Assembly (NCBI GenBank): GCA_027604185.1
Contig: JADGKB010000051.1
Coordinates: 1 to 64,000 of the forward strand
DNA from: Boothiomyces macroporosus
Lineage: Eukaryota; Chytridiomycota; Chytridiomycetes; Rhizophydiales; Terramycetaceae
DNA length: 64,000 bases
Direction: 5' to 3'
The notes under the pieces were generated by a model. That model searched no databases. It was not told where the DNA came from and worked only from the letters and a program-made list of their open reading frames with translations. Positions 1 to 64,000 of this stretch are shown piece by piece. A program made the position numbers and the translations under genes. Position 1 is the stretch's first letter. Every line of letters begins with the position of its first letter.

Positions 1-131
1 TCCCTTACAACGATCAAGTAAACTACGATGGAACTTTTTTGGATACCATTGACAAGATTGATTACAACCATGTTACTCAATTTGTTCGTAACACAATTGG
101 GTTTGTCGTTGAATTGTCTTTGGCAGCTTAA
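1..131 (+). CDS. M28 family metallopeptidase, C-terminal end only (cut by window edge)
   Basis: The reading frame enters from the left edge (first full codon at 3) and stops at TAA 129-131. The roughly 42 residues visible match the C-terminus of the neighbouring peptidase gene at 1116-2165 almost exactly (PYNDQVNYDGTFLDTID is shared). They diverge only in the last part, where this copy has KIDYNHVTQFVRNT and the neighbour has NVSFDHVAQFVRNT. This is therefore the 3' end of a tandem paralogue in the same orientation. Like its neighbour it has DGT where secreted fungal aminopeptidases of the family carry the zinc-ligand IHT. The rest of the gene lies outside the window. Confidence 0.85.
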   Translation, partial: PYNDQVNYDGTFLDTIDKIDYNHVTQFVRNTIGFVVELSLAA

Positions 132-1115
132 TAAGACAAATAAATGTAGAATAAAACTGGTTTATGCTGAATACTTTTTAAAAACTATTCATGAATGATC
201 CACTTTCAACAATTCCTCGTCTTTCCACTTTGATACGTATAGCAAAGGTTTAATGCTGGCACACAAAATGTTGATTTAGAAACCACCCAGACTGAAAGCT
301 ATGGGTGCTGGTGGGTATTAGTATTGGCTTCAGATCATCTTCATCGTGGACACAGAGAACGCGTGGTCGACATGTGGTGGGTTTAACGGCTAACGTAAAA
401 GTGCTGCTCAACTCTTGATAAGCGAGTTTGTATTTTTTTCAGTATAAACCAATCCCTGGATATCACATCGTGCTGTTCTTTCAGGTGTTAGAATGATTTC
501 TTTACCACGGCCATTTGTTTACAGATTCTTTATGTGATATTCTCCAATTATATACACTGTACTGCACAGTACATTTACCATGAGATTATATTCGCACGAG
601 AATTCTGAATATTCTTTGAAAGTAATGGAATCTCAATTATTGAAACTCTGGCAAAAGAAGGACTAGATCAAATGTTGATATCAGAATTTGATCTAAGACT
701 ACCGCGTTTCAAGACGTTACTTGAAACCAGTCCATATAAAATGGTGTCAAATTTCCAATTGGACAGTCCACTTGAAGGTTTTGATCCATTCGCAAATCAC
801 CTGATGTAGATCGCGCAGATGGACAAGTGATCACGTACCGAAAATTGATTGTGTAACCCAAATAAGTGAAGCTGCAAGGTATCAATGAATCAACTCAAAA
901 CTGATAGTAAACGAGAATTATAGTAGCTTATGTGCTCAAAGCTTCCAGTGCTCTCTCAAGGAAATTTACTTTTCCTCCATGCACAGAAGACATGTGGAGT
1001 GCATGCGAAAGTATGGTAAAATAACAGAACTCACAAGGCAGTTACACAGAAGGTTAATGACACAGAACGGATATCAGAAAACTATAAATACAGACGGGAA
1101 AGAGAACGCTCACAG
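132..1115. other. Intergenic spacer between the two peptidase genes
   Basis: This stretch of almost 1 kb separates the tandem peptidase genes. I see no long open frame, no tRNA-like cloverleaf and no clear repeat. The last 80 bases should hold the promoter of the downstream peptidase; an AT-rich TATA-like string (actataaat) lies at about 1080-1088, some 30 bases before the ATG. Confidence 0.4.
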
Positions 1116-2165
1116 ATGAACGCAATTACCCTTGCCCTCGCGATTTCCAGCATTGTAGCAGTTCCACCATGGGTCAAAAAAACCGATTTCAAAAACTTTG
1201 ATAGAATTGAAAGATTTTCAGCACCTACAGCCATTTCATCATTTCCAACCAAGCTTTCTCAGCAAACATTGGTCAACTCTTACATCAATCAAATTCAAAT
1301 TGACAACCTCAAAGCTCACGTAAACAAGCTCACTTCTTTCCCTGAAAGATATTATCAGAGTCAGAATGGTGCCGATGCTGCGACTTGGTTGTACAATGAA
1401 GTTGTCAATCTTGCAAAGAGCGCTTCACCAAAAGTAAAGCTCACTGTCAAATATTTCCAACACTCCCAATGGACTCAACCATCAGTGATTGCTAGATTGG
1501 AGCCAGTTACAAGCACTGGTCCTGGTGATATTATTATTACCGGTACTCATTTTGACACTGCTTCTTACGATATTGGAGGTGGCAGTGGAGATATTTCCAG
1601 ACCTAATCCAGCAGCAGATGATTGCGCATCTGGATCTAGTGTAATTGCTGAAACTCTACGTATTTTGGTAGCCCAAAACTTTGTTCCAAAAAGACCAATC
1701 GAATTCCACTGGTATGCAGCCGAAGAAGAGGGTCTTCTTGGATCTGACGAAGTTGCCAATGACTATGCATCCCGCCAAGTCCCAGTATTTACTTACTTGA
1801 ACCTTGATCAATCTGGCTACGTTCAACCAGGGGCTACTCCAGGTATTGGAATCATCACTGACTACACCACTTCTGATGCGACCAACTTCCTCACTCAAAC
1901 TGTAAAAACATACACCACCGTTACCCGTACTGGAACCTTCCAATGCGGATATGAATGTACTGACAATGCTGCTTGGTATGACGCCGGTTACAACAGTGCT
2001 CTGGCATTCGAAGCACCAACCAACTCTGAAGCATTCCCTTACAACGATCAAGTAAACTACGATGGAACTTTTTTGGATACCATTGACAATGTTAGCTTCG
2101 ATCACGTAGCCCAATTTGTTCGCAATACACTCGGGTTTGTAGTAGAACTTTCTCTTGCTCCTTGA
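1116..2165 (+). CDS. Secreted M28 family Zn-aminopeptidase-like protein
   Basis: Single exon, 349 aa. A short hydrophobic N-terminus (about residues 3-16) looks like a signal peptide, so the product is probably secreted or vacuolar. The M28 core is clear: GTHFDT (first His ligand), AADDCASG (bridging Asp), WYAAEEEGLLGS (catalytic Glu and Glu ligand) and LDQSGY (Asp ligand). The paired cysteines in CGYEC match the disulfide of fungal leucine aminopeptidase 1. Family members hydrolyse N-terminal residues from peptides using two zinc ions. Oddly, the last His ligand (IHT in fungal LAP1) aligns with DGT here, so one metal site may be altered; the partial tandem copy at the window edge shares this. 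The protein could be an active but divergent peptidase or a pseudo-enzyme. Confidence 0.85.
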   Translation: MNAITLALAISSIVAVPPWVKKTDFKNFDRIERFSAPTAISSFPTKLSQQTLVNSYINQIQIDNLKAHVNKLTSFPERYYQSQNGADAATWLYNEVVNLAKSASPKVKLTVKYFQHSQWTQPSVIARLEPVTSTGPGDIIITGTHFDTASYDIGGGSGDISRPNPAADDCASGSSVIAETLRILVAQNFVPKRPIEFHWYAAEEEGLLGSDEVANDYASRQVPVFTYLNLDQSGYVQPGATPGIGIITDYTTSDATNFLTQTVKTYTTVTRTGTFQCGYECTDNAAWYDAGYNSALAFEAPTNSEAFPYNDQVNYDGTFLDTIDNVSFDHVAQFVRNTLGFVVELSLAP

Positions 2166-2291
2166 AGAAACTAGAAATAAAGTCATTCAATTCTAAATTC
2201 ACCTCTAAAAAAGTTTCGTGAAAGTTATATTCTCACAGTGGTCAATGTCCAAGATCAAATCACATCTGGTGGTATCCATATTTATTTTCAT

Positions 2292-3355
2292 TTAACCAAC
2301 TCTGTAGAGATACAACAAGATATAGCTCATGGACACCCAGTTCAAAAAATCACTACACACTTTAATCCAGGTCATTATCTGCTGATTTTTTTGAAAATAA
2401 TCGATTTCAAAGGTGAGAAGCAAAGTGCTGTTGTTTAAAATAGTAATTCCGTACAATAACCAAAAGGTTAAATCCATCGCCCACTTGAAGTTTGCTATTT
2501 TCACCCTCTTTCCCTTTGATTTCACTTGAGATTTGATGGTCCCTGTATGCGACACATGCCCTTCAGATTTTTCTGGATTAATTAGACTTACCCTCGATGG
2601 TTTTTGATTCACGTACTTTTGAACTACCTCCCAAAGAGTCTTTTGTAATTATTAGTCGTGAGATCACTGAAGAACCAAAGTAATATAACACTGGAATGGA
2701 AATGAATGCACATACCAAAATAGAAAGAAGCATCATTGCTCTTCGAAATAGCAAATAGTACTCCAGGCCATTCCAAGTTCCAAGGGTGCACCAACCAATA
2801 CAAAATACCAATGTAGCGATAAGAATAACCAATCTAACCAATTTCAAGATTTTATCAGGAGAAACCACTCTTTCGCCGATTTTTACATCTGGAAATAAAT
2901 TTACTCCTGCTCCGGCTGAAACTACACCAACCTGATTGTTAATTCTACCATACAAGGAAAACGTTTGAAGAAATCGCGGCGAACGCGTAGCTGATGAAAT
3001 CCAAAATAATATTGGTTTGAACATATTGAGCAATACTGGACGCAGTCATTGTAGTAACATCAAATGTATATGTTAATCTGATATGTGCGAGTAGAGCGAT
3101 ACGGAACATGTCAGAAGTCCCAATTAGAAAGCAGAGTTTATCTGAAGCTGAGAGATTAAACTTTTGACCTCTTTTTCGAAGAGTGTTTCGAATAATGAGA
3201 CCTAAATATCCCAAACCAGTTATGCTTAGTATAACAATCATTACCAAATCGCTTATTGCAAAATCATACTGGGTTTCGCTTGAACAGCCCAAGTAGTTAA
3301 ATCTATAATCGCACATCTCCAACAAATACGCATTTGACAGAGTTTCGTTTGTCAT
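2292..3355 (-). CDS. Seven-TM membrane protein, family member A
   Basis: Three exons on the minus strand: 3355-2954, 2931-2592 and 2572-2292, with introns of 22 nt (2932-2953) and 19 nt (2573-2591). The product is 340 aa. Hydrophobic segments lie at about residues 36-56, 72-93, 114-142, 163-187, 198-222, 270-295 and 305-335, giving a likely seven-helix topology. A cysteine pair near the N-terminus (MCDYRFNYLGC) is shared with the adjacent paralogue at 3922-5004, as are both intron positions and the C-terminal motif SMSYILLYLYRVG. I do not recognise a known family; the layout would suit a receptor-like or lineage-specific membrane protein, but no GPCR signature is visible. The ATG at 3355 was chosen because it aligns with the start of the paralogue. 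Confidence 0.75.
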
Positions 3356-3921
3356 ATAGTTGAGTAAGTTTAGTTTTAAAAAGTACGTCATCTTGCTTCT
3401 GAAGGCTGACGTCGAACTTGCAGTCATGCGAGTAAGGTGATCTAAAATACCTTGGGCAACTCAATCTTCGCGGTTAAAACCAGCGTCAACGTGGTATAAA
3501 GAATTCACATGTAATTCGTTCAAAAACTTGCAAAAGTCGAATTCAATATCTTTGATGCGAACATTCCTGCAAAATTTGGTAAAGAATACAGCAGAGTTTA
3601 TGTGTATCTCATCGATATCTATTGGTAGTTTGTCGTTTGGTCCACAATGAAAGATTAGCCTAATATTTTAAATTACAATTGTTGAGCTGGTAGTTAGTAT
3701 AATGATGTAAAAATGGATTGATTATTGCTGCTATAATTGTCCTTGAACCTACTCGCTCCATGTGGGTGTAATATATGATTTTTTGAGTAGAAAGGACTTG
3801 AATGGGTAAGGTAGGTTTACGTAAGCAACGAAAAGGATGAGTGACAATTTCACAGATCTTTGAATTAAAGCTGGCATACTAAATTTGAATTGACCCCCAC
3901 TTTGTAACCCACTTTTTTATT
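3356..3921. other. Spacer between the two seven-TM paralogues
   Basis: About 570 bases upstream of gene A and downstream of gene B. It is AT-rich with many stop codons in all frames. I see no gene, RNA or repeat in it; it presumably holds the promoter of gene A at its left side. Confidence 0.4.
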
Positions 3922-5004
3922 CTATCCAACTCTATACAAGTACAGTAAAATGTAACTCATTGAGATTACACTTATACCATCACCAAAGGACTTTATACCT
4001 GCAATAATCTCTTGATGCGCTTGCAAATAAGAATTTTCAAAAGTCACCAAGAGTAAGCTGGAATTGATTATGGTAAATACAAACAGTAGCCAAATCGTCA
4101 TATCCATAGCCCATTTGAAGTTGGCTATTTTCTCCTCCTTACTCCTCTTTTTCACAAGGATTTTCTTTCCGCTAGACTTGCTCCCACTTTGATCTTGTTA
4201 GAAAAAAGATACCATCTACGCTAGCGGAGGCGCCATCTGCTTTGGTTGAATTGTGGCTCTTTTCATTGTGGGTTGATACTTTGTTTGCACCGTCGTTTGT
4301 CATCAATTGGGAGATTACATTATTTCCAAAAAAGTACAATGCAGGAATAGAAATGAAGGCACAACTACAGATAGAGATAATAAATGTGCCTCGTCTAAAC
4401 ATTATATAGTATGGTAGACCACTCCAGACACCCAAAGTACACCACCCTACACACAGCGTAAGAGTTATGGATAAAACTACCAATCTAATCAACTTAAAAA
4501 TCTTGTCTGGTGAAATCACTTTTTCTCCAATCTTCAAATCAGGAAACAAGTTGATTCCTGCTCCAGATGATACAACTCCAACCTAATATGAAAACAAAAT
4601 ACTAGAAAAATATTCGAACAAACAGCACCTGCGGAATAGTAAATGAAATCCAGAACTACATTGACCTGGACGTATCTTGCAATGTAAGTGTCAGTCAGTG
4701 AAGCTTTATCAACAAAGGCGATGGAACGTGCGTTTGCCAAGACTCCGATTCTAAAGATATTGGAAGTAATAGTTAATAAGCACACCTTGTCAGCCATTTG
4801 TAACTTCCATTTTGAACCTTTTAAACGCAAGATACTACGGAATATTAATAGCAGGTATCCTGTGGCAGAGCAGCATAAAAGAAGTATGACCACCAAATCA
4901 CTACTAGCAAAGTATTGTTGAGTCTTTTCTGAACACCCAAGGTAGTTCATTCGATGATCGCAAACATCAAACAAGTACGCATTCACAAGGGACTGGTTTG
5001 ACAT
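3922..5004 (-). CDS. Seven-TM membrane protein, family member B
   Basis: Three exons: 5004-4603, 4582-4213 and 4193-3922. Introns of 20 nt (4583-4602, gtattttgttttcatattag) and 19 nt (4194-4212, gtatcttttttctaacaag) sit at the same positions as in gene A. The product is 347 aa. Shared blocks with A include NAYL, NYLGCS, VNVVLDFIYY, SGAGINLFPD, KIFKLIRLVVLS, GWCTLG, ANFKWAMD and the C-terminal LLYLYRVG. The second intron is confirmed because only its removal fuses the frame ending SVDG to KEEKIANFKW. The function is unknown. The pair is a local tandem duplication in the same orientation, old enough that linker regions have diverged. Confidence 0.75.
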
Positions 5005-6772: not shown

Positions 6773-6869
6773 CTATAGTCAAAAAATTCGATTTACGCGA
6801 CTTTCTCATGCAAACGGCCAAATTTATAAATTTATCAATTTTCTATTTCTATATCGAATTTTAATGGTA

Positions 6870-9398: not shown

Positions 9399-11767
9399 AT
9401 GAAGTAATCGTTCTTAATGAAGGTTTTTTATAGATGATTTGGAAATAATTTTCCCGTATGAATATATATATCCCGAGCAGTTTGAATACATGCGGGACAT
9501 TAAGCGAACTTTGGACGCACAAGGACATTCACTGCTGGAGATGCCTTCGGGGACTGGAAAGACCATTTCGCTTCTATCTTTGATAGTCGCATATCAGATG
9601 CATTATCCGGAAAAGCGGAAGCTAATATATTGCTCCCGAACTGTTCCCGAGATTGAAAAAGCGTTGGAAGAGTTGAAGCGATTGATCAGCTATCGCGAAT
9701 CAATGGGTAAAAAGGAACAGTTCTTGGGAATAGGATTGACCTCCAGAAAGAATTTATGCGTTCATCCAGAAGTATCTAAAGAAAAGCAAGGGGTAGTCAC
9801 TGACGCAAAGTGTCGGAACCTTACCGCGCCTTGGATTAGGAATCAACCTGATGTCGAACTTTGTAGTTTCTTTGAAAACCTGGAAAATAATAGTGCGGCA
9901 GCTTCTATTCAATCTGGAGTTTATACGCTGGAAGATTTCAAAGAATACAGCAAAGGAAATGGTTTCTGTCCTTACTACTTTGCAAGAAAAGTATTACCTT
10001 ATGCAAATGTAATTATTTACAGTTATCACTATTTATTAGACCCAAAAGTAGCCGAAGTAATTTCCAAGGATCTGTCTAAAGACTCCATAGTCGTATTTGA
10101 TGAAGCGTAGTCTTGTTGTTAACTATAGGCACAATATTGGTATTTTCAGTTTAATTAGATAACGTATGTACAGAATCTCTTAGTATTGATATTTCAAAGC
10201 CAAATTTGGATGCTAGTGCAAGATGCTTGAGTGAACTATCCCAAAAGATTGAAACGTACCACTAGATTAACATAGAATGAAGCAGTCTAACTCTGAAAAG
10301 CTGGCATCTGAATATACTAGGTTGGTCGAAGGGTTACGTGAAGCTCAAATTGCAAGGGAAGAGGCGGAAATCATGCCGAGTCCTGTGCTTCCAGATGACA
10401 TTCTTCAAGAAAGCGTTCCTGGAAATATTAGAAGGGCAGAACACTTTGTTGCTTTTTTAAGAAGATTTGTAGAATACCTAAAGGTAACTGTTATTAATCT
10501 AGACTCGTATGAGAATTTTCCACGTTGTTGCTGAAACTCCGGTTTCTTTTTTACGACATTTAAAACTGGATACATTGATAGAGCCTAAGCCGTTAAAGTT
10601 TTGCGCCGAGAGACTGTCATCTTTAATCAGGACACTGGAAATTAACGATCTGCAGGACTACAGGCCTCTCCAAAAAATTGCAGCATTTGCTACACTGGTT
10701 TCAACATATCAAACTGGATTTATGTTGATTCACGAACCGTTTGAGAACGATTTAGATACCATCCCAAATCCGGTTTTGCACTTTACATGCTTGGATGCAA
10801 CACTAGCAATTAAACCTGTGTTTGATAGATTCAGTTCTGTGATTGTAACTTCTGGGACCTTGTCACCTCTGGAACTGTACCCAAAAATCCTTGGATTTGA
10901 GCCAGCAGTAGTTCAAAGTTATCAAATGACTCTGGTGCGACCATGCTTTCTCCCATTAATTGTGACTAGAGGTTCCGACCAAGTTACAGTATCTTCCAAA
11001 TTTGAAGTGCGAAATGATATGGCTGTTGTTCGTAATTATGGAAACATTCTATTAGAGTTTGCAAAAATAACTCCAGATGGACTAGTATGTTTCTTTCCTA
11101 GCTATCTCTATATGGAGTCGATTGTGGCTGCGTGGAATGAGCTGGGGATGTTGCAAGAGTTTCTCAACTACAAGCTTATCTTCATTGAAACACCAGATGC
11201 TGCGGAAACATCTATAGCATTAGAAAGTTATAGAGAAGCTTGTGATAATGGAAGAGGTGCTATTCTACTCTCTGTAGCCAGAGGTAAAGTTTCCGAAGGT
11301 GTGGATTTTGACCATCAGTATGGCAGAACGGTAATTCTATTTGGGATTCCTTACCAATACACAGAAAGTAGGATCTTGAAAGCCAGACTGGAATATCTCA
11401 GAGATAACAACCAGATTAGAGAGAACGATTTCCTATCATTTGATGCTATTAGACACGGTGCGCAATGTGTTGGTAGAGTAATTAGAGGAAAGCAAGACTA
11501 TGGATTAATGGTTTTCGCCGACAAAGTAATAGTAATTAACGATAGAGATTTGCAAGGCAAGATAAACGAACCAAATTACCAAAATGGATCGTATCACAGA
11601 TGGATGATGCAGGAAACAATTTATCAACAGATATGGCTGTATCAATGGGCAAAAAGTTTTTCAAGGATATGGCTCAGCCAGTTGCTGGTAATCCTATGGG
11701 AATATCTCTGTGGAATGAAGAGCAAGTCAACCAAAAGAACTCTTCCGATGTGGACATGCGGCATTGA
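9399..11767 (+). CDS. RAD3: TFIIH/NER 5'-3' DNA helicase XPD (Rad3)
   Basis: The 749 aa product has all hallmarks of the XPD subunit of TFIIH, which opens DNA in transcription initiation and nucleotide excision repair. Visible are Walker A (MPSGTGKT), four Fe-S cysteines (NLCVHP, AKCRNL, ELCSFF, GFCPYY), FDEAHN, the Arch segment ([12 protein letters not shown]), [13 protein letters not shown] and motif [12 protein letters not shown]. Six introns are needed: 9404-9422 (19 nt), 10107-10128 (22), 10140-10158 (19), 10256-10275 (20), 10484-10502 (19) and 11526-11545 (20). The first coding exon has only 5 nt (ATGAA), restoring the family N-terminus [14 protein letters not shown], and exon 3 has 11 nt and splits the DEAH box. 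The length matches human XPD (760 aa). Confidence 0.97.
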
Positions 11768-28513: not shown

Positions 28514-30305
28514 ATGGCAGACCAACCAAAGCTGTATGACGATCCAGTAACTGGAGAAAAAATCTCAAAGAGGTTCATTTGAATTGATGACTAGCGAACT
28601 CAAGAAGCGCCAAAAGTTGAGGGAAAAGGAAGCCCAAAAGGCAGAAAAGGCTGCCCAACAACCAGTAAAGAAGGAAAAGGTGGAAGAAGAAATCTTGGAT
28701 CCAAGACAGTACTTTGAAAACAGAAGCAAGGCTGTTCTCAAGATGCGTGAAACCTTGGAACCAAACCCATATCCAAACAAATTCCATGTTAGCATCTCAA
28801 TTCCAAATTACATTAAAAAGTACTCCTCATTAGCTGATGGGCAACGTGTTGAGGAATCAGTGACAGTAGCCGGTAGAGTGCACAACATTCGCTCTCAAGG
28901 AAAGGGATTGGTATTTTACGATTTGCACAGTGAAAGTGTAAAAATCCAAATCATGGCCTCTGCACAAGATTCTGAAAGGGATTTCAATGAAGTTCACTCT
29001 ATCCTTCAGCGTGGTGATATTGTAGGTGTCCGCGGTTATCCTGGAAAGTCAAAGAAGGGAGAACTTTCCATTTTCCCTCATGATATTACATTATTGACTC
29101 CATGCTTGCGCACCCTTCCAAAAGCCAACTACGGATTCAAAGATCAAGAATTAAGATATCGTATGAGATATTTGGATTTAATCATGAACAACAACGTTCG
29201 CGACAAGTTTGTTGTACGAGCAAAGATTGTTAATTATCTCCGCAAGTTTTTGGATGGGCTTGGTTTCCTTGAAGTTGAAACTCCAATGATGAACATGATT
29301 GCTGGTAATTGGTTGTTTATTTAGGTGGTGCAACTGCAAAGCCATTTATTACTCACCACAATGATCTCAAGTTGGACTTGTTTATGCGTGTTGCCCCTGA
29401 ATTGTACTTGAAGATGTTGGTTGTTGGTGGTTTGGACCGTGTTTACGAAATTGGAAGACAGTTCCGTAATGAAGGTATCGACATGACCCACAACCCTGAA
29501 TTCACCACTTGTGAATTCTATATGGCATATGCTGATGTATACGATCTTATGGAAGTTACTGAAACCTTCCTTTCCGGATTGGTATTGTCATTGTTTGGAA
29601 CTTACAAAATCAAGTACCACCCACAAGGTCCAGAAGGACCAGAAATGGATCTTGACTTTACTCCGCCATTTAGAAGAATTTCAATGATTCCTGAATTAGA
29701 AAGAGTGTTAAAGTGCAAGTTCCCTCCCAGCGATACTCTTGGCTCTCCGGAAGCAAACAAGTTCTTGTCCGATCTCTGCAAGAAGAACAAGGTAATAGTA
29801 ACTAATTGAAGGTTGATTGCTCTGCTCCTAGAACCAATGCTCGTCTATTGGACAAGCTTGTTGGCGAATATATTGAAAACCAATGCATTTCACCTACATT
29901 CATTACTGAACATCCAAAGATGATGTCCCCATTAGCAAAGGGGCACAGATCTCAACCTGGATTGTGTGAACGTTTCGAGTGTTTTGTTGCTACAAAGGAA
30001 GTCTGTAACTCTTACACCGAATTGAACGATCCATTCGAACAAAGAGAAAGATTCGAACAGCAAGCAGGAGATAAGGCTATGGGAGATGATGAAGCCCAGC
30101 TTATTGATGAAACTTTCTGTAACGCACTTGAATATGGTTTACCTCCAACTGCTGGATGGGGTCTTGGAATTGACAGATTGACAATGTTCTTGACAGACTC
30201 TAATAACATCAAGGAAATCTTGTTATTCGTAAGTTGTATATTTAACACTAGCCTGCCATGAAGCCAGAAACCAGTGATCAACAGTCTGCTAGAGAAGCTG
30301 TTTAA
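28514..30305 (+). CDS. KRS1: Lysyl-tRNA synthetase, cytosolic class II
   Basis: Introns at 28573-28594 (22 nt, unusual GTTCAT donor), 29305-29324 (20), 29792-29811 (20) and 30229-30251 (23) give 568 aa. The N-terminal basic extension ([20 protein letters not shown]) and OB-fold ([22 protein letters not shown]) precede the catalytic domain: motif 1 [18 protein letters not shown], motif 2 [19 protein letters not shown] and motif 3 [14 protein letters not shown]. The C-terminus ends [14 protein letters not shown]. It charges tRNA-Lys. The splice junctions fall inside invariant motifs ([10 protein letters not shown]), which makes their exact placement secure. An AATAAA follows directly after the stop at 30304-30309. 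Confidence 0.97.
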
Positions 30306-35747: not shown

Positions 35748-35933
35748 TCAGCTGCTTTGCTTTTGCGAATCCCATCCCTTAGCATTGGCAAACTTGCAAA
35801 TCGACAGGTAGGCCAAGGCGAATTGCGACCCAGCTCCAATTGGGATAAACAAGCCTACAACTGTCGAAAATTTACCGTCTCTATATAGTGAATAGGGACT
35901 TGCAATTTTCGAAAAAAAAGTAGGACGCGTCAT
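35748..35933 (-). CDS. Small hypothetical one-TM protein (doubtful)
   Basis: A 61-codon open frame starts at the ATG 35933-35931. It has a basic start (MTRPTFFSKIASPYSLYRDG) and one hydrophobic stretch (about residues 27-50), like small mitochondrial inner-membrane subunits. I cannot assign it to a family. Its ATG overlaps, on the opposite strand, the ATG of the SPAG17-like gene at 35932, an arrangement that leaves no room for separate 5' UTRs. It may be a chance frame in the promoter between SRP72 and the SPAG17-like gene. Confidence 0.3.
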   Translation of the reverse strand: MTRPTFFSKIASPYSLYRDGKFSTVVGLFIPIGAGSQFALAYLSICKFANAKGWDSQKQSS

Positions 35934-38900
35934 GAGCAAGAAGGAAAAGAAATCCTCAATTTCAAACCTTTCCGCTCAGCAAAGTATACAGATTCAGTCG
36001 ATTAATGATGTATGATTGAAATAATCTCAGGATAACTTTAATGCGTTCATTTACTTTATATTTATGGATGCAGGTATCAGTACAGAAATGACATCTTCCA
36101 AATACCAGCAACTGTAAGTGTTACTTGATATTAGCGCGGAGTGGATATCAGGGGGATACAGACAGAGATTTTCAGCTCTATCGAAAGGCGAACTTGTATC
36201 TTGGGCATTGGAAAATGTTAAAGTATTCGATGCTTGCAAAGAATTAAAAGTTGCAATGGATGGTGGTAGTTCAGAATCAGATTTGAGCGACACTCTTGTG
36301 GCCAAACTAATTAGATGTTGGTTGACAAATTCAAAGCAGGAGCTTTTCGATGTGAAGAATGGAATAAAGCAGCTTGCAGTAACCCGCACTAATTATAGAG
36401 AGAATCAGAAGCTCTGAATTTGGAGGAATCTAAAGCAAAAGGAAAAGACAAAAATGAGAAAGCCAAAGAACCAGAAAAGGGAAAGACAGTTGCACCTCCA
36501 GCAGGAAAGAAAGGTGCCCCTCCACCAAAAGGTAATTTTTGCTTATTGTAGGAGCTAAGGCGGCTGAAGCAGTTCCGCCAGCATCAGCTGGATCAGAAGC
36601 CGCTAAACGCAAGAATAAACTTAGAGATCGTACTGGTGGCAAGGAAAAAGTAGTGGCTATTGGTAATGGTATCAATAATATTAGGTGACGAGCCAGCAAA
36701 TGGGCCTGACGTTTACTATTTCTTGAAAGACTTTGATAGTCCAGGAATTTTGATTGCATTAAGGGAAGAATTTGAGGTTCCAATAGACGCTATTTTCAGA
36801 ATCGAAGATGCTCCAACAAAGAAAACTGCCGATTTGAGTTACTCTGAAAACCCAAATACAAATCAAACTTGGCTGACTTTGTATAATCTTGCAAAAATTC
36901 AAAATGAACCTGCGTGGAGGAAAACTGTTTGGATTACAATTCCTGCAATGGAATTCAAAGAAATCAAGGAAATCTTTGATAATTTGGCACACAAGATCTA
37001 TGCGATTCTAGAACTGAAAAAGATATTTTTGCAATTCTACAAGTCAGACAATATCATCAATATTCCAACGCTTGAGCTTACGCAGGTAGACTTGAGATAT
37101 TATGAATACTTGATCAGCGCGACAAAGAGCGGTGGCAAAATGAATATCGATTTTCAATTAGCCCTGTTCCTGGAATATTTCTCAAGGGTTGCACCAAACG
37201 ACGAAAACAGTCAACTTGATCTCAAGGAAACTAATATTGGATATTTAAAGCAATTGTTTGATAGTGAAATCCGAAAAGTTGTTTTAGCTTTGCCCTATGA
37301 TAGCGAACCAAGGACCCAGCGCCGATCTGCCGACGGGAAAAAGTTGGCAGCTGTTAAAATAGTTGATTTTTATGACTTGTCAAAGCTACACAGCTATTTC
37401 ATGTCAGCCCTGAAAAGCATAAACTTGGATCCAGAAGCATTATTCAATGCTCTGGCAGAGTGCTATCCTGCTGGAAAGTACAGCAACTTTTTAGAAAGAC
37501 ATCCAGATTACCGCCATCTTGCTTTGGATAGTGTGCTGGGGGAGTACATGAAAATACAAACAGAGTATTTTAGAGTATCTAAAAATATGATGGAAGATAC
37601 TACCAGAATGGAAAAATTCTTGACGCAGTTGGAGTTGGAGGAATTGTGCAAATCCTCTTGTGAACTTGGGTACAATGACTTTACATTGGATGACTGGAGG
37701 TGGTTTGGAAACATGAGCTACTACAGCCTGATTCAGGTATGCAATGTTTTATATTTAGTCTGTTCAAATTACTCAATGCACCCTTCCCCAAATATATCAC
37801 CATCTTCCGGACAGTCAAGGGAAACTCTTACTAATAATGAAATCTCCTGGACCGCTCGGATGCTTGGAGTACGAGGAATCGGAGAAGATTAGCGTAATTC
37901 ACTTGTAACTATAGGTTCGGACCAAAGTCGACTTTTCAAAGTTCTACGAAAGCTATGATCCAGCTACTGGAGTAATGGATGGTGAGGTGGCACATTCGAC
38001 TCTGGAAACCACAGGAACAGCATATTTGATGAACGACGCTTCCATGAAAATCATAGACACCAATTCGTACTTGTACCCTGACAACAACATCATTATCAAA
38101 GTAACAAAAAGATCCTCTCAACTATTCAATGGTTACTAATCATCTAACTTAGACTTATTTACTAAGATTTGGTGGAATAATAACTTTATCCGATTATCAT
38201 CTGGAGTGATTGCCAAAACTGCACCTTCTCTCGTTGCACGATTTTTTGATGGTTCAGCCTTTTCAATTCTAGACAATGGAGATTGCCTAAATATCAAATT
38301 CTCTGACGAGCACGCAAACCATTTTATTTTCCAACCAAATGGAAATATAATTTGCAAATCTTATAAAAGCGAGGATTTGGCTTGGAACAACAAGATTAAA
38401 GTGCATTCCCGGTTGTTCTTCCCAACGGTTTGCAATAGCTAATGTTAGGGAATTGTCGTGAAATATTTTGAGAGCAAGGATGTGATTGTCATGTATCCAG
38501 ATGGCTCCACTGCAACCCAGACACCTGGCAAAGATTGGGTGATCCCTGATTCATCAACTTCTGATGACATGCTTCAAAATGAAGCAGTAGAGCATGAGTA
38601 TCCAAATGGGAAAACGATTTGGACAAAGGCAAACTTGACAGTGATAACAAAAGATACAAAAGGAAATGTTTTAGCGGAACATACTGATGGCACACAAATT
38701 TACAGCCCTACAGATCAATCCCACGACATCAGTTGGTTGGATGAAGTCAACCTAAAAATCATATTTAAAGCTGACGGGGAACAAATTGTAGATATGGGAA
38801 ACGGATTCCAAATTTCAAGAAAGTATGAAAACGGTAAAACACTCTCTGTAAAAATCAAAAGAACGGATATGGCAATTTCAATCGAGGCTACAGGAAACAT

Positions 38901-40673
38901 GGAAGTGAAATTGTCTTCGGAGCATTTTAATCCACCTCCAAAGGAAAGCCAAAATAGATTTGATATTAATTGGAGACAAGGCACTTTGAATCTTTTGGAT
39001 ATTAGAAATCACGTATTCACAGTTAATGCGGATGGTTCAACAAAGGTTTCTTTTTATTTAGATTAGGTTGCAAAGCCAGAGGTTGTACCAGAGTATCCTG
39101 ATCTGGCATTTGGAGGGAAATTGACGAAATCTGCATTAAAGATAAAATCTAGAGGGTATCTCTACGGAAACACTCCTGAAATATTTGTAATTTACCCAAA
39201 CAGACAAGGTGGTTTACACTTCAAAAGAGATTCAGACATGGCACGGTATTTCCAAAGCTACGGACCGTTAAATCTAAAAACGAATGAAGAAAATATGAAC
39301 CATCCGGAAGCTGTCACTTTATCCTCAATAAGGGAATACAAGCTGAATAATTCTGAGCAAAATGTAGTTCAGTATCGACAGGTGAACATTGCTAATGTAG
39401 CTCACGAGACTCTCTCAACTAACCCGAGCTGAGCGAGATAATATCAGTAATGAATATTTCGAATTTAAAGAGAAATTGAAAAAAAGACACTCCCCTGTTC
39501 CAATATCAGAACTAGGTGAAACAGAAGGCGCGTTGCAACCCAATTACGACGGCAATGGATCATTTACCCTTGGCTCAGACAAAGAAGCTACACAATTGGC
39601 AATAATTTTACAGTATATGGATAAAGAAGACCTTTCCGGTAATCCTGGGTTTGCAGTTAATGTAATTCTTGCTTAAATTAGAATGACGTCATGGCACTTT
39701 TAAAGCAAGCCAAAGAGCTAAAAACTAAAAGCAGCACATCATTGAGAAGCAACTCTATGAAGTCAAAACCTCCTTCGAAAGCCCGAAAGTCGATCACAAA
39801 CAAACCTCCAAAATATTTTGAAAGCCCTGAAGGACAAAAGTTTTTGGGAGTTCAATCTGTAATTGGAATTAATAATAGGCACTATATGAATCTAAAATTA
39901 TTGCTGCCTCTTGTGAGTCGTTTGTTTCTGAAACTACTTCAAGATTAAGCGCTAAACGCGAAGACGGAGTGGAAAGAATTCCCGATAGTTCCCAAGGGTC
40001 ATCAGAAATGCCACCACCTTCAGAGCATAGCCAAGTGGTATCCACTTTAATCGAAGTATCAAAGGAAGTCCTTAATGCCGCATTGCCAGAGCTACCAAAG
40101 ATAAAGCCTCCTCCAAAAACACCACCGCCAAAAGTGCGAAAACTGCGATATCCAAACTCGATTCTTGGAACAAAACCTGGCTTGATCCCAAATACAAAGC
40201 ACCTAAAGCAGGAAGCAAACAGCCATAGACAATTGAATACCGCATCTACAGCAGAACCAAAAAAGAAAAATCGTAATTTTGACTGACTATAGCAATTTAT
40301 GGTGTGGGAGAATTCATTGCCTTACCAGGTAGATGCAAATTTGGCACTGTTGAAGCTGGTCAGACTTATGACAAGACAATAGAATTGACAAATGTTGGGT
40401 TGGATTCGTTGAGATTCGCAGTAAAGCTTCCTGCAAACGAACTCTTGTTTGTACATTACAAACATGGATCGGTAGACTTTATTTCATTTAGGTTGCCCCA
40501 GGTATGAGTGCCAAGCTCACAGTTTCATTGAGTGCCAAGAATGATAAATCTACTGAATTGGAAATTGATGAAGTGTTGAAGGTGATTACAGAAGCTGAAA
40601 TTTTGAACATCCCTATTAAAGCCAGTATGAAATTACTAAATTAGAAATCTCTCCAAAACTAGCCAAAGACTAA
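35932..40673 (+). CDS. SPAG17: SPAG17/PF6-like flagellar central-pair protein
   Basis: Sixteen introns of 19-22 nt (starting at 36010, 36114, 36379, 36532, 36663, 37737, 37894, 38132, 38428, 39046, 39382, 39662, 39859, 40273, 40472 and 40625) give 1470 aa with no frame break. Early parts contain a Lys/Pro-rich linker and a conserved block with YFLKDFDSPGILIALREE. The middle has KVDFSKFYESYDPATGVM and repeated Tyr/Pro/Gly/Asp beta motifs (MYPDGSTATQTPGKDW, EYPNGKTIWTKANLTV, FKADGEQIVDMGNGF). The end is an ASH-like domain (YGVGEFIALPGRCKFGTVEAGQTYDKTIELTNVGLDSLRF). This order matches SPAG17/PF6, a C1a central-apparatus protein needed for flagellar motility. The start overlaps a doubtful antisense frame. 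Confidence 0.85.
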
Positions 40674-42363: not shown

Positions 42364-45183
42364 ATGTCGAGACACCGAAATGTAAGGAACATGGACTTGG
42401 ACGAGGAAATGTATGAGGATGATTATGATGGTTGATCTTGCTAATGATAGACTACGATGACGATTATGATGAGGATGCAGATGAATACGACGAAGACGCT
42501 TACGATGGTTCAATTCCCTAATGTAGAATACGACGAGTACGAAGTATACGATAGTGGAAAGAGCTATAAAGCCTCAGCTCCGAAATCAGCACCAAAAAGT
42601 ACTAGAAAATTAAATGTAGAAGGTAAACTAATTCTCTTCTTTGGTTACAATTATTCAAAATGCGACTTTGATTTGAATTGCAATGAGGACTATCTTCCTT
42701 TAAAAAGCAAGAAATTCAAGCGGTTTGTGGAGGTGCAAGATTGTATGGAAGTGGAATCTGGTAACTTGCCAGATGTGGAGGCTAATCACTTTTCCAAATC
42801 AATATCTGGTTCGAATTCGATTGAATTTGAAAATACTGGCATCAAAAATATTTCATCCAGTGTGGTTGGTCTGAAAGCATTATCCAACAGTAATAATGGA
42901 CTTAAATCTCTTTCAAATATCAGTACGATGGGGGTTAAATCATTATCAAGCGTTGCCAACTCTGGATTGCAATCCCTTAATCAAGGCGGTGTTAATTTGG
43001 CTTCAAGGGTAAATAGTGGATTATCTGCTGGCAATGGGCTAAAGTCACTATCCAATATGAACAGCAATCAGGCAGTTTCAAGATTAAAATCACTTTCAAA
43101 TACCTCTGCAATGTCAAATTCTTTGAAATCGCTCTCAAATTTGAGCAACATTGCTATTAAATCTTCCAATGGCTCTTCAGAATCGATTTCAACAACTAAT
43201 GCCAGTGTAACTGGTCTTAAATCTTTGGCCAATTCAAATGTGTCAATGGCAACATCGTTTAACCATGAATCACCGGCTGGATTGAAATCTATTGCCCAAA
43301 ACATGTCAACTGGATTGACACTATCTCAACTAGCTACTGCAAATCAAAAGAACAACTCTCTAAGGGTTCCTACACAATCCAGTGCAAAAATATCCCTTTC
43401 ATCAATAAGCAGCTCCCAAATACCAACTATTACTCTGTCGAAATTAGGGCAACAAGTAGATCTAATTACCGAAGAATCTTCAAAAACAGCAAAAACATTT
43501 CTTGCATCTCCCACCCGCTACGCATCATTTCTATCTTCAACACTTTATTCTAGACCATCTATTAACCTTTCTTTAGACTCTGCACCTACTAAATTCGACT
43601 TTAAAACACCAAGCCCAGATCAAATTGCCTTGAATGCAAGAAAAAACAACACCCAACCTGAAAAGAAAGGCAAGAATATCGTAAAAGAAGTTGAAAATGC
43701 CACTTCAAATATGAAGAATTTGAATGTCAAAGAAACTGTAAAACCAAAAGAAATTATCCCCAAAAAGAAAAAGATTGATGTGATTTCAGAATATTCAAAG
43801 AGGACTGATACGATGGAGAGACTAAATTTGGTTGTAGCTGGTAAATTCTACTTATACCTAGGTCATGTCGACGCTGGTAAATCCACAATGATGGGGCATT
43901 TATTGCTTTTACTAGGTGAGGTTTCCAATAGAACAATTGAAAAGTACCAAAAAGAAGCAGAGTCGATGAAGAAAGGCTCGTTTTGTTTCGCTTGGGTTCT
44001 GGATGCCACTGAAGATGAAAGATCTAGGTAATTTGAAATAATGTTAGAGGTGTTACAATTGATGTTGGTGTGTCTCAATTCAAGACGCCAAATAGAATAT
44101 TCACCCTCCTTGACGCTCCAGGTCATAAGGATTTCATCCCTAATATGATCTCTGGTGCTAGTCAAGCAGATGTGGCTATCTTGGTTGTAGATGCTTCCGT
44201 TGGTGGTAGTTTTTTATTTTAGATAGGGTTTGAAAGCGGATTTGACCACAATGGTCAAACAAGAGAACATGCCCTGCTCTTGAGGTCTCTAGGGTTGAAC
44301 CAGCTTATAGTGTGTGTAAACAAAATGGATCATGTACTTTTGACTAATTGTAGGTGGAATGGTCAGAAGAACGCTTCAAGGAAATTGAAGCCAAACTTTC
44401 AAAATATCTAACTACTGTTGGATTTAACAATCAAGTAAAGTATATTCCTGTAAGTGGATATACAGGTGAGAATCTTCAAACACCAGTCAATAACTGGTAC
44501 ACTGGGCCAACACTAGTGCAAGCGCTAGATATGTTTAAAATACCTGAAAGACAGATTAAAGAGCCATTTTGCTTGTCCGTTCAAGACTTTTTCAAGGGAG
44601 GAATTGGTGCAAGCGGAGGAAATGTAACTGTTTGCGGAAGAATTGAGAGTGGAACGATACAGATTGGTGAACAGGTGCTAGCACTTCCTATCAATGAAAT
44701 TGGAGTTGTTAAGCATATTATGGTTGGGGAAGAAGATGCAAACTGGGCAGTTGCTGGTGATAGGGTGTCCATATCACTCACAAACCTTGAAGTAATTCAA
44801 TTCCATTTAGGCTCTGTTATTTGCGACCCTATTAGCCCAATTCCCGTAGTAGAATCATTTAAAGCAAGGATTCTGACTTTTGATTTGAATATCCCAATCA
44901 CGATTGGTGTTCCAGTAGTAATGCATCATTTAGGTACTGCAGAATCAGGGTTCATCCAAAAGTAACTATTATTAATCCTAGATTAGAAGCCACCCTAAGC
45001 AAAAGCGGCAATGTAGAAAAGAAGAATCCAAGGTCTCTTTTTAAACACACTTCAGCCATAGTAACAATTAAATTGAATCGCCCGATTTGCATTCAAGTCA
45101 ATGACAAGAGCAAATCTCTGTCTAGATTCTTGCTTCGCAATGGCGGTAATTCTATAGCTGCTGGTGTTGCAATTGAACTTTAA
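42364..45183 (+). CDS. HBS1: Translational GTPase HBS1 (ribosome rescue, Dom34/Pelota partner)
   Basis: Seven introns (42431-42450, 42508-42526, 43841-43861, 44028-44047, 44206-44226, 44334-44353, 44962-44981; 19-21 nt) give 892 aa. The N-terminus [22 protein letters not shown] is typical of HBS1. A long Ser/Asn/Leu-rich linker with repeated GLKSLSN follows. The GTPase domain has [21 protein letters not shown] (P-loop split by an intron), a switch I region [25 protein letters not shown] and NKMD, followed by two beta-barrels ending [15 protein letters not shown]1 loads Dom34 onto stalled ribosomes. An eRF3-type protein is less likely given the HBS1-like N-terminus and the GEDE-type barrel. 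Confidence 0.93.
42868..43296 (+). repeat. Degenerate GLKSLSN heptad-like repeats in HBS1 linker
   Basis: The linker encodes about ten variants of the motif G-L-K-S-L-S-N ([63 protein letters not shown]) separated by short Asn/Ser spacers. The repeat is seen at protein level; the DNA copies have diverged by synonymous changes, so it is an old expansion. HBS1 linkers elsewhere are flexible but not known to me to carry this repeat. Confidence 0.8.
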
Positions 45184-45572: not shown

Positions 45573-45978
45573 TTAGATAATTTTAGGTGCAAGAGCAGCA
45601 ACTTTGGCCCATCTCTTTTGTCTGCATTCACTGGCAATTGGTCCCTGTATTAGCATGACTTACCATTATTCTATTTCCCAGCGGTTGTCCTTGCTTGTTT
45701 AGCATTACTACTGCGTTATCATCAAACTTTATGTAGCTGCCATCCAGTCTTCTTACTTCCTTGTGCGTCCTGACTACCAGTGCTCTTGCAACATCTCCCT
45801 TCTTTAGCTTTACAGCTCCTCTGGATTCAGTAGGCAACAATGGTCTAGCTTTTTTAACAGCGCATACAATTTCATCGCCAACTGATGCTACCCTTGATCC
45901 GCCCATAACGTTGATGCATTCCACTACCAGTGCTCCAGAATTGTCTATTACCTTGAGAAAACTTTTCAATTGAATCAT
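45573..45978 (-). CDS. MRPL38: Mitochondrial ribosomal protein uL14m
   Basis: Two exons with a 19-nt intron (45645-45663, gtaagtcatgctaatacag) give 128 aa. The start [50 protein letters not shown] and [17 protein letters not shown] are uL14 signatures. The bacterial-type sequence ([15 protein letters not shown]-like HKEVRR) separates it from the cytosolic uL14 (RPL23), so it belongs to the mitochondrial large subunit. No presequence is visible, as in yeast Mrpl38. It is divergent from the NudC gene, with only 23 bases between ATGs, so they share a very short promoter. Confidence 0.92.
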
Positions 45979-46001: not shown

Positions 46002-46628
46002 ATGGTTGAGGAAAGTGACAGACAAGAAAAGCTGAGATTGGAGCAAATCGAGCTGGATAAACTGCCTTACAAGTGGAAACAGAGTTTGCAGGAAGTGGAT
46101 TTGACTATTCAGTTGCCAAAGGGAACCAGAGGCAGAGATCTACAAGTGTCGATTACAAAGACACACATCTCGGTAGCATTGAAAGGACAAGAACCAATTA
46201 TAAAGGGAGAACTGTGCGCTCCGATCAAAGAAGAAGATTCCACTTGGTTGATTGACAACAATGAACTTTTAATTCACTTGGAAAAGATCAACAAGCAGGA
46301 ATGGTGGAAAAACGTTGTGGTAAGTCATTGCAGTCAATTATGATGGGACAGATTAACCCTAGACTCACCACTTTGCCATTGACACCACTTTAATCCAACC
46401 GGAAAATTCGAAACTGTCAGATTTGGACGGAGAAACCCGAGGGATGGTTGAAAAGATGATGGTAAGTATTTTTGTTTGATATTTCTCGGTTCAGACTAAC
46501 CGTAGTACGATCAGAGGCAAAAGCAAATGGGGAAACCAACCAGCGAGGAAGAACAAAAGATGAGAATGTTTGAAAAGTTCAAAGCTCAGCACCCAGAAAT
46601 GGATTTCTCTAATGCAAAGTTCAATTAA
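46002..46628 (+). CDS. NudC-like CS-domain protein
   Basis: Introns of 43 nt (46320-46362) and 44 nt (46462-46505) give 179 aa. The CS (p23-like) domain is clear: [29 protein letters not shown], then [25 protein letters not shown]. The C-terminus has [36 protein letters not shown], the conserved NudC tail. NudC proteins are Hsp90 co-chaperones needed for dynein and nuclear migration. The protein lacks the long N-terminal part of animal NudC, as in Aspergillus NudC. Its two introns are twice the length of nearly all others here, with strong GTAAGT donors and TTAAC/CTAAC branch sites. Confidence 0.93.
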
Positions 46629-53650: not shown

Positions 53651-53695
53651 TAAATCTTTTTCAGTTTGAAATTTTGTCCAGATCTTGAAATCTGA

Positions 53696-56262: not shown

Positions 56263-56322
56263 ATTGGTCACAAGAAGGATTCATACTAATGAGTTTATTC
56301 TGGTGCTATTTAAAATAAATTC

Positions 56323-59300: not shown

Positions 59301-59380
59301 TCAGGGGGCTTAATCCCATAATTGCTCTGTGGTTGCTGCAACGTATTGACTTTATTTGTTTCCAGTTTACTTTTCAGCAT
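56323..59380 (-). CDS. Large disordered/coiled-coil protein of unknown function
   Basis: Three exons (59380-58121, 58100-57977, 57956-56323) with 20-nt introns at 58101-58120 and 57957-57976 give 1005 aa. Residues 1 to about 350 are basic, Ser/Asn/Lys/Pro-rich and disordered. A coiled-coil of about 170 residues follows and spans all three exons (DNLDRLAKLKSQNHELHERI, KNLENERKKYAALELENERL, VRDLELDNHQLVELISKREV). The C-terminal 450 residues are acidic/Lys-rich with repeated D-T-x-L-D-E-D motifs. The layout suits a cytoskeletal or centrosomal scaffold, but no family is recognised. The ATG at 59380 is the first in the frame. Confidence 0.6.
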
Positions 59381-59562
59381 TATTATTAGAAAGAAGAACA
59401 ATGTCTCAAAACCTTTGAAAAGATTCCCCAAAGTCTTATATTGCAGTGAATGGAGCTGTACATACACAAACTCAAGCAAGGAAGTGATTATATTAGTTAT
59501 ATCAGCCTATTGCTGGAATATTTTCGAAATTTCCAAACAGAAGTAACAAAATTATATTGTAT

Positions 59563-62025: not shown

Positions 62026-62450
62026 GTGGTTGTTTGGGAAAATACTTAAGTTTGAAACGGTATATTTGTGGCAAAGTTAGGCGGTACAGAGCCCCGAAAA
62101 CTAAAGATTTTAAATCAACCGGCACCGCACCTGGAAATTCATGAATCAAATATTCATGAAGCGAAGCGGCTCGTCCCAGTCGGAAATTAATTAGAATTTA
62201 TTGTTCAATGCGGTTTTGGCAGTCTCCTTTCTAAATTTTTTTGGGTCCCTGTCGCAGTCACGAAGGGCTGATTTTTGAAAAATGGAAACGAAATTAAATT
62301 TTACAGTGCAGCCAATCAGTGATATGAATATTCAAACGCACTCTGATTGCTTGGCACCTGGTAGATTTTGGATTTGCATATCGTGGTAGTTGCTTAATGT
62401 AACAGAATTTAACTTGTACGAATCAAGGAGCTGGTTTTTTCCAATTTTCA
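62026..62450. other. Divergent intergenic region between the TBC gene and the last gene
   Basis: About 425 bases between divergent start codons. Two copies of attcatgaa lie close together at about 62138-62162. No coding frame or RNA gene recognised. Confidence 0.35.
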
Positions 62451-64000
62451 ATGACAGTGCATGACAATCAGAAAATCAAAACCATTTTTCAAAAGCTTCC
62501 GAACATGAGTGCAGTAATTCTTTCTAACCCAGTCGATCTCTGATCCTGCCAGACATGAGAAGATCTTGTCGTTTATAAGCCATAATACACTTGATTTTAC
62601 ACTGGATGAATTGACGGAAATATTTGGCCATCTTCAAGTAATTGCTAATTAACGGATGCGTGCATTAAAGAACAAGGATGATCGGGTAGTGTCATTATCT
62701 CTTCGGCTGATTGCGTTGATATTGCAGCGGAATCCAGAGAGTTTCGATTTGATTCAACAGAAGCATTCAGTAATACTAGAGGATATTATCAGCTTTTCAC
62801 GCAAGCAGATATCTGACGTGTTGAAGTATGGCTACTTGGAAGCCTTGGGAAAGCTCTTGTTTGTTCCAGGGTTTGGAACATGGGCTCAACAAGTCAATCT
62901 TGACATTCAGGAATTCGCAGAGGGTTCATTCATCACAAACAACTTTTTCATCACAAATTCATCCATAAGGCTTCTTTCAATAACTGGCGTAAAGAATCCA
63001 AGTATATATTATGTAGATATTATCAAAGGTCTTGATCTATTGGATGCACAGGAGTCTTGCAATTCAGTTTCTTTTGAGTTTGTGGTGAGTGTCTTTTGAT
63101 TCAAGTTAGAATATTGCCTGCCATTGATCAATTCAAGTGACAGAATTGCAAGACAGAGAGCACATGGATTAATATTGAAACTAGCGAAAAAGGGATTTCT
63201 AACCCAAGATCTATTGGGTCATATTCCTATCGATTTTGATACCTACGGCTGGCTAGAGTTGCTTTTAAGAGTGTCAAATATGCTTGAATGGCCAATTAGA
63301 GAAGAGCTTGTCGATTTGATTATCGAAAAACTCGATCCAACTTTTAATCTTGTATGTCAAGGTGCGATATTACAGAAATATCAAAATATAAAGTTAAAAT
63401 ATCAAATGAAGGAGGAGTCTTTATTGAATATTAGTTTAGCTATGGACATTGTAAACAATGTTGCTCTTGAAATGAGTCCATCCTGGAATTTGGTAATTTT
63501 ACTTGACACATAGACATTATTGCACCATATAGTCAAACTAGAAACCCGAAAATTTTCAAACAAATCTCTATTTCTAAAACTTTCCATCATCCATAAGGCC
63601 ATAGGTTCAATTTTGAAATCCAATTTGTCCCTTCCACAATTTGATATATATTCTGAATTGCTTGAAGTGATCGAAAGCTCCAGTTACAATCCAGTGATCT
63701 GTGTTGGTTTTCAAATATTTGAAATCCTTTATTTGAACAATATCCTGTCCAAAGTAAACATTTTCTAACCAGGAACAACTAGAAATGCTCTTTTCGATGA
63801 ATGTTGGATGGGAAGTTACACATCAAATTCTGAACATGATTGAAAAAGCCTTGAAAGCAGACAGGATAGAGCTTTCCCAAAGCTTGCCTTTGAGCAACTT
63901 TATTGAATCTTCCCTTTGCAACGAAAACTCGATAATCAGATGCGCAGCTCTTCAATGTCTAATATGTTTGGCAAAATACCCTTCTGCTTCTATTGCACGC
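62451..64000 (+). CDS. Helical-repeat protein, possibly PSMD5/S5b-like proteasome chaperone (3' end outside window)
   Basis: The start is the ATG at 62451 (MTVHDNQKIKTIFQKLPNMSA). Introns at 62514-62532 (19 nt), 62638-62658 (21 nt ending TG) or 62638-62670 (33 nt ending AG), 63085-63105 (21), 63493-63513 (21) and 63754-63772 (19) leave an open frame of about 480 codons running off the right edge. The product is all-helical with HEAT/ARM-like periodicity (KDDRVVSLSLRLIALILQ, SDVLKYGYLEALGKLLF, SDRIARQRAHGLILKLAKKG, SIIRCAALQCLICLAK). Alternating helices, VVSLSLRLI and the tandem layout recall PSMD5, an assembly chaperone of the 26S base, but the match is weak. Incomplete at the 3' side. Confidence 0.6.

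Follow-up and report, generated by a model that had tools for sequence, protein, structure and literature searches.

Spliceosomal introns close to the lower limit of length have been described in several eukaryotes. The parts of the literature drawn on here give intron lengths of 16-17 nucleotides (nt) for mikrocytids, 18-21 nt for the nucleomorph and 15-16 nt for heterotrichs (PMC10245619), together with 23 nt for Trichomonas (PMC12316389) and around 25 bp for Paramecium and Nyctotherus (PMC5014332). The hosts of the shortest introns are named there as a relict nucleus, intracellular parasites and heterotrich ciliates (PMC10245619). For Mikrocytos mackini 224 introns are predicted, and the mikrocytid spliceosome is described with 17-19 proteins and with the small nuclear RNAs (snRNAs) U2, U4 and U6 (PMC10245619). 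For Stentor, the branch adenosine is placed at nucleotide 10 of 15 or nucleotide 11 of 16, 3 nt before AG, and the loss of the GGG plug of Cwc25, together with a non-conserved N-terminus of ISY1, is conjectured to avoid a clash with the tight lariat (PMC9505925). The present analysis concerns a population of introns of about 20 nt in 64,000 nt of DNA (the window; positions 1 to 64,000 of contig JADGKB010000051.1, assembly GCA_027604185.1) listed under the chytrid Boothiomyces macroporosus.

With a probability of about 0.9, these segments are spliceosomal introns of the U2 type, whose length has shrunk until it leaves little more room than donor, branch site and acceptor need. An earlier note on the window had taken them for ultra-short spliceosomal introns, nearly all of 19-23 nt, in a fungus-like nucleus, and this reading is supported by comparison with decoy splice sites, by a branch motif, by canonical recognition sequences in U1, U2 and U6 and by the restoration of homology on intron removal. 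Judged by protein identity and lineage, the nucleus is that of a true fungus, a chytrid, namely B. macroporosus or a nearly identical organism (Terramycetaceae, Rhizophydiales, Chytridiomycota). Its LysRS showed 99% identity to that of Boothiomyces sp. JEL0866 and 85% to that of Globomyces pollinis-pini, and the XPD pieces in the window are identical to the public B. macroporosus protein. The presence of a SPAG17-like gene in the window fits a flagellated fungus. Boothiomyces and its kin are free-living fungi. Ultra-short spliceosomal introns are a known phenomenon; what is unusual here is the lineage, together with an apparently ordinary spliceosome.

Introns were predicted with a semi-Markov gene finder, in which codons are scored against background and introns are allowed only between chosen donor and acceptor dinucleotides. 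The first, codon-only mode gives all lengths from 8 to 300 nt the same (flat) prior weight and works without a splice-site or branch model; the second adds donor and acceptor weights with lengths still flat, and in the third the lengths are learned. A whole number of codons per gene is imposed by the finder, so that the whole codon number of every complete gene, stated in the earlier note, is built in here. Beyond the window, 20 pieces of 10 kb each were sampled from other contigs of the assembly (15.2 Mb in 216 contigs), giving 264 kb in total. With GT..AG ends, the codon-only mode called 43 introns in the window, with 23 in the range of 18-23 nt, while ten decoy dinucleotide pairs gave 28-36 introns with only 0-4 in this range; the total score was 2413.9 with GT..AG and 2336-2374 with the decoys. 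Because the codon table of this test had been derived from the GT..AG run itself, the test was redone out of sample, with window-trained codons on the 20 other pieces. Here 57 of 124 introns measured 18-23 nt with GT..AG, against 3-10 of 88-109 with the same ten decoys. GT..AG ends outperform decoy ends, as is expected of U2-type introns, and the length peak is not due to chance.

Over the whole 264 kb, the codon-only model gave 170 introns, 89 of them at 18-23 nt (24/45 in the window, 65/125 in the other pieces), with at least one such intron in 19 of the 20 other pieces. Splice-site weights with flat lengths raised this to 351 of 501 introns (third round). With learned lengths, 492 of 557 introns fell at 18-23 nt (116/132 in the window, 376/425 in the other pieces), the commonest length being 20 nt (n=211), so that a narrow peak below 30 nt covers most introns, as in an ultra-short intron class. 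Simple scaling of 492 per 264 kb to the 15.2-Mb genome gives an extrapolated total of about 28,000 short introns. The 132 introns of the final model in the window, on both strands, include 115 of 19-23 nt, close to the earlier count of about 105, nearly all of that length; the 16 outside 18-23 nt range from 26 to 195 nt, and the one among them that was tested by homology (43 nt, NudC) fits in length. For 436 short introns the effect of retention was classified: 392 give a frameshift or a stop and 44 are readable through. The weakest calls are these 44 short introns divisible by three and without a stop; nothing is claimed from them, because the finder sees such introns poorly.

For the homology test, each intron was kept in the otherwise spliced gene, and every segment of 0-60 nt whose first base lies no more than 14 nt from the predicted donor was removed in turn. 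The products were translated and scored against homologous proteins, GT or AG not being required. The main set comprised four genes: LysRS and XPD (RAD3) were scored against five proteins each from other genera, the Hbs1-like gene against a rabbit chain, and SPAG17 against proteins of Boothiomyces sp. JEL0866 and Terramyces (P0241 and P0242). The three introns quoted as examples in the earlier note were all located, two of them in these genes:

29305..29324, + strand, 20-nt LysRS intron, quoted earlier; 5/5 homologs, gapless 59/59
29792..29811, + strand, 20-nt LysRS intron; 5/5 homologs, gapless 59/59
30229..30251, + strand, 23-nt LysRS intron; 5/5 homologs
9404..9422, + strand, 19-nt intron near the XPD start, quoted earlier; gapless in 51/54 homologs, too near the start for the removal test
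10107..10128, + strand, 22-nt XPD intron in the DEAH-box region; boundaries optimal with 5/5 homologs, gapless within 4 amino acids (aa) on either side in 58/58
10129..10139, + strand, 11-nt XPD micro-exon between two ultra-short introns; needed for a conserved 16-residue stretch of the homologs
10140..10158, + strand, 19-nt XPD intron; 5/5 homologs
10256..10275, + strand, 20-nt XPD intron; length optimal with 5/5 homologs, exact boundaries with 0/5
10484..10502, + strand, 19-nt XPD intron; length optimal with 4/5 homologs
11526..11545, + strand, 20-nt XPD intron; 5/5 homologs
43841..43861, + strand, 21-nt intron of the Hbs1-like GTPase gene; against rabbit Hbs1L (chain 5lzw) the length is optimal but not the boundaries
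44028..44047, + strand, 20-nt intron of the Hbs1-like gene; boundaries optimal
44206..44226, + strand, 21-nt intron of the Hbs1-like gene; boundaries optimal
44334..44353, + strand, 20-nt intron of the Hbs1-like gene; length optimal, boundaries not
44962..44981, + strand, 20-nt intron of the Hbs1-like gene; length optimal, boundaries not
35932..40673, + strand, SPAG17-like flagellar gene, 16 introns predicted (19-22 nt); length optimal at 15/16, the exception being 38132-38152

In this set 29 of 33 introns were testable. For 28 of the 29, one or more homologs scored best at the predicted length, and for 27 all of them did. The stretch within 4 aa on either side was also inspected in alignments with 59 homologs of LysRS and 58 of XPD: at four junctions it is free of gaps in every covering homolog (59, 59, 58 and 57), and at two more nearly always (56/57 and 51/54). 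Three junction rows of these alignments read zero gapless homologs; among the three homologs printed for each such row, the window protein shares the gap columns in all but one, which means that the gaps were opened by other sequences.

A second set was scored against solved chains, with segments of 0-80 nt, and 7 of its 11 junctions were testable. The predicted length was optimal at four of these seven, in uL14m (19 nt), NudC (43 nt) and ISY1 (20 and 19 nt); the junctions of this set that lie in the window are those of uL14m and NudC:

45645..45663, - strand, 19-nt intron of the uL14m-like ribosomal protein gene; length optimal against the 6ywe chain, boundaries not
46320..46362, + strand, 43-nt NudC intron, one of the longer minority; length optimal against the 1wfi chain, boundaries not
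46462..46505, + strand, 44-nt predicted NudC intron; called by the gene finder, outside the aligned part of the solved chain

Removal of the introns thus restores the protein at 28/29 and 4/7 junctions, as would be expected of U2-type introns. Both NudC introns have GTAAGT donors and, like many short introns, a branch motif 4 nt from AG. The pair hints at a minor class of 40-45 nt, for which the flat-length third round gave 16 introns, a modest excess; a second class is not claimed, because one member only was tested by homology.

These results bear on the possibility that part of the population is an artefact of the finder, many of the introns being longer or absent and the learned lengths pulling calls towards 20 nt. 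The length model, when switched on, does lift the sample total from 501 to 554 introns, and about half of the codon-only calls (81/170) lie outside 18-23 nt. False or missed calls also exist: 38132-38152 fails by homology, 1976-1996 appears spurious on inspection, internal exons as small as 0 nt and 3 nt, impossible or doubtful, were predicted once each, and the predicted LysRS of 551 aa is without the first residues of the public protein of 568 aa. The peak is, however, present without any length or splice-site model, and homology recovers the predicted lengths at all but one of the testable junctions of the main set, which makes such an artefact quite improbable.

The XPD gene gives the clearest example of how these introns are arranged and how they can be missed. 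Across its DEAH box, an intron of 22 nt, an exon of 11 nt and an intron of 19 nt form a unit of 52 nt (10107-10158). The public B. macroporosus XPD protein (P0122) matches the window XPD exactly in two pieces of 206 and 507 aa. It begins at an internal methionine of the window model and lacks the micro-exon, being without 12 residues that include part of the DEAH box. The public model fits a 77-nt intron at 10107-10183, as deduced from the protein, in place of the short pair. Ultra-short introns may have led to errors in further public gene models of this genome, to judge from the one protein examined. The public XPD of Terramyces sp. JEL0728 is without the residues adjoining the 10256-10275 intron, which suggests that an intron would lie at the same place in that organism.

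Whether such introns are already recognised among chytrid specialists is a separate matter, and it is a possible, though not the probable, state of affairs. The LysRS publicly available for Boothiomyces sp. JEL0866 already has the correct joins at these sites, so some annotation pipeline must have accepted introns of this size. Against this stand the faulty public XPD and a literature search that gave no report of ultra-short introns in fungi among the matches listed, most subscription papers and all preprints being outside its reach. One 2026 Rhizophydiales genome paper mentions introns once, as a gene-finder setting.

The anatomy of the introns is narrowly constrained. In the donors of the 557 introns, A occupies position +3 in 89% and +4 in 55%, and G position +5 in only 19%. 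A branch-like YTRAY motif occurs in 330 of the 494 introns of 18-24 nt, compared with 93.9 (standard deviation (sd) 8.2) for shuffled interiors. Because these introns had first been called with weights on the last 11 bases, the count was redone on the codon-only set, where 66 of 89 carry the motif and shuffling gives 18.2 (sd 3.7). The motif would be able to pair with the GUAGUA of U2, as in U2-type introns. Among 304 introns of 18-23 nt with a single motif, 227 have 13-14 nt before the branch A and 3-4 nt between A and AG; the spacings, given as nt before A and nt from A to AG, are (13,3) in 60, (13,4) in 63, (14,3) in 65 and (14,4) in 39. The same four spacings account for 46 of 59 single-motif introns of the codon-only set (11, 19, 14 and 2); the last, (14,4), makes an intron of 21 nt, a multiple of three, through which the codon-only finder can read. 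Fewer than 13 nt before the branch A is rare (16/330), and we suspect that these motifs are chance matches. The stretch ahead of the motif is T-rich (41% T, with rough branch placement), and there is no pyrimidine tract between branch and AG because the space is too short. A donor of GTA(A), an A at nucleotide 14 or 15, then 3-4 nt and AG add up to the commonest length of 19-21 nt. The squeezed layout described earlier holds for the GTA(A) donor, the YTRAY-type branch and the AG, and the distance from A to AG, given with it as about 1-6 nt, is mostly 3-4 nt. A first branch estimate, with A at one fixed distance, was an effect of the starting value and was replaced by a motif search without positional prior.

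Parts of the splicing machinery were sought in the genome. One match to U6 and two to U2 were found above the cut-off, and the recognition sequences are canonical in U1 (AUACUUACCUG), U2 (GUAGUA) and U6 (ACAGAGA). No match was found to U12; the controls likewise gave no signal, so this proves nothing. All six of the splicing proteins sought were found (U2AF65, SF1, Slu7, Prp18, Isy1 and Cwc25), among them the U2AF and SF1 that the earlier note had proposed to survey along with the U2 snRNP genes. The predicted U2AF65 combines an RS-like N-terminus with three RRM stretches, the predicted SF1 has a helix-hairpin (HH), a KH domain and zinc knuckles, and the domains of the predicted Slu7 and Prp18 are full or nearly full. 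A spliceosome is thus present in the genome, as U2-type introns demand, and a reduction of the mikrocytid type, in which U1 is not found and spliceosomal proteins are few, was not seen among the parts sought, U5 and U12 RNA aside. In the part of the source drawn on here, yeast Slu7 and Prp18 are said to matter mainly at branch-to-acceptor distances of at least 12 nt (PMC11651659). Both are kept here despite mostly shorter distances; they may still serve the less common longer introns or safeguard fidelity. The Cwc25 gene models are identical on two contigs (C49 and C100; L046 and L047), perhaps through recent duplication or unmerged haplotypes, and contig C20 carries two RRM matches that score identically and lie 45 kb apart.

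Taken alone, a short and uniform length with restored frames would also fit segments that are removed from the DNA, like the internal eliminated sequences of ciliates, or skipped by the ribosome. The GT..AG polarity, the branch motif and the canonical snRNAs, all in a fungus, speak so strongly for splicing that this explanation has hardly any likelihood. We know of no DNA elimination of the ciliate kind in fungi.

A spliceosome specially altered for tiny introns, as conjectured for Stentor from the Cwc25 plug and the Isy1 N-terminus, also seems unlikely here. The N-terminus of the predicted Cwc25, MGGGDLNLKKSWHP, is the same as that of human CWC25, with the GGG plug intact, which rules out a Stentor-type explanation by loss of the plug, and the U1, U2 and U6 sites are canonical. 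In favour of an alteration, the alignment of the predicted ISY1 to the human chain begins only at human residue 24, and the N-terminus before it looks extended (L045 1225-1330). The predicted start is, however, an uncertain gene model, and the Pfam profile still aligns from profile position 5. The ISY1 N-terminus, unlike the human one, is possibly a gene-model error and possibly a real change beside the splicing active site.

Several results weigh against the interpretation as U2-type introns of about 20 nt. In the main set, no more than 20 of the 29 junctions had their exact predicted boundaries as the optimum with all homologs, and in the second none of the seven did; such misses are expected where flanking residues vary, a cause not demonstrated here. 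SPAG17 38132-38152 is the one failing junction of the main set, and the second set has misfits, in poorly conserved stretches, at CWC25 1297-1317 (21 nt) and ISY1 1802-1823 (22 nt) and 1930-1949 (20 nt). In both sets the homolog segment was picked from the predicted protein, which is mildly circular. YTRAY is absent from 164 of the 494 introns, a third, where either the branch site is looser or a boundary is miscalled. When the finder was run again after excision of the predicted introns, the length model made 5 further calls, all of 18-23 nt, and the flat model 21, none of 18-23 nt; this gives no independent error rate, because false calls were excised too. The single U1 match (68.8 bits, E 3.3e-16) lies just under the curated cut-off of 69.5, and at the lax limit used for it a sub-threshold match appeared in 3 of 14 control genomes also. 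U5 was not found among the 46 of 1544 candidates scored, a result made uninformative by controls that gave no signal either. The survey of the spliceosome was confined to U1, U2, U5, U6, U12 and the six proteins.

If the segments are U2-type introns, U1 and then U6 would pair with the donor and U2 with the branch motif, and branching would yield a lariat loop of about 13-14 nt. The acceptor would be the first AG downstream of the branch point, since only 3-4 nt follow it, and a pyrimidine tract would not be read there. Recognition would proceed by intron definition, because an 11-nt exon can sit between two introns. Deletions could have shortened the introns to their present lengths until a lower limit was reached, for which the spacing from donor to branch would be mainly responsible. 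A broader proposal, to which we give slightly better than even odds, is that some 28,000 introns of 19-21 nt are handled by a spliceosome that is neither reduced nor altered, and that the lower limit in fungi would reflect history and not spliceosome geometry; the ruler would be at least 13 nt from donor to branch plus 3-4 nt to AG, probably shared by the Terramycetaceae.

The third of the introns quoted earlier lies in a gene whose protein is without a Pfam family, and its call comes from the gene finder alone:

2573..2591, - strand, 19-nt intron of seven-TM gene A

Two similar predicted membrane proteins adjoin each other on the minus strand there, at 2292-3355 (no Pfam match) and 3694-4797. 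The neighbouring gene at 885-2165 is peptidase-like by eye, and window positions 3-131 are the 3' end of a second copy of it, the C-termini being near-identical. The reading frame is open through the predicted 21-nt intron 1976-1996 of this gene. In the sampled pieces, micro-exons of 10-12 nt were predicted between ultra-short introns at L015 3463-3472, at L023 582-593, 613-624 and 3194-3203, and at L024 1934-1945; the list also contains the exons of 0 and 3 nt, so some of its members are finder errors.

A chytrid with normal snRNAs would offer a tractable place to ask what is the smallest intron that a standard spliceosome can handle. Boothiomyces could show whether a tight lariat collides with the Cwc25 plug, and whether branch-to-acceptor distances of 3-4 nt still call for second-step factors. 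For another chytrid, Spizellomyces punctatus, transgenic lines are on record (PMC7213984). For annotation, gene models that miss ultra-short introns corrupt the proteome, as the public XPD without part of its DEAH box exemplifies.

Among the known systems, Yarrowia lipolytica, Giardia and Trichomonas resemble Boothiomyces in that the distance from branch to AG is fixed and a 3' pyrimidine tract is lacking, and in the part of the source drawn on they are treated as intron-poor (PMC2483917); in Boothiomyces introns abound, and shortness extends to the entire intron instead of being confined to its 3' end. The mikrocytids (Mikrocytos mackini and Paramikrocytos) share a narrow range near the lower limit, whereas Boothiomyces has U1 as well and all six proteins sought, with no reduction in those parts. 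The likening to nucleomorph and Stentor introns made in the earlier note is apt. The Bigelowiella nucleomorph has nearly the same narrow range, given as 18-21 nt (PMC10245619) and, for B. natans, as 19 nt (PMC2483917) in the passages concerned, with many introns in protein genes. It is, however, the remnant nucleus of an alga and holds more than 800 introns (PMC10245619), in contrast to a fungal nuclear genome with an extrapolated 28,000. Stentor coeruleus and the heterotrichs, as far as the source was seen, likewise keep most spliceosome parts and have the branch A at a fixed place (PMC9505925), and the 3 nt from branch A to AG recur in many Boothiomyces introns. The donor-to-branch part is 3-5 nt longer in Boothiomyces, and its branch motif is clear, whereas no strong consensus is described in that part of the Stentor source (PMC9505925). 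The GGG plug of Cwc25, reported missing in Stentor, is intact in Boothiomyces.

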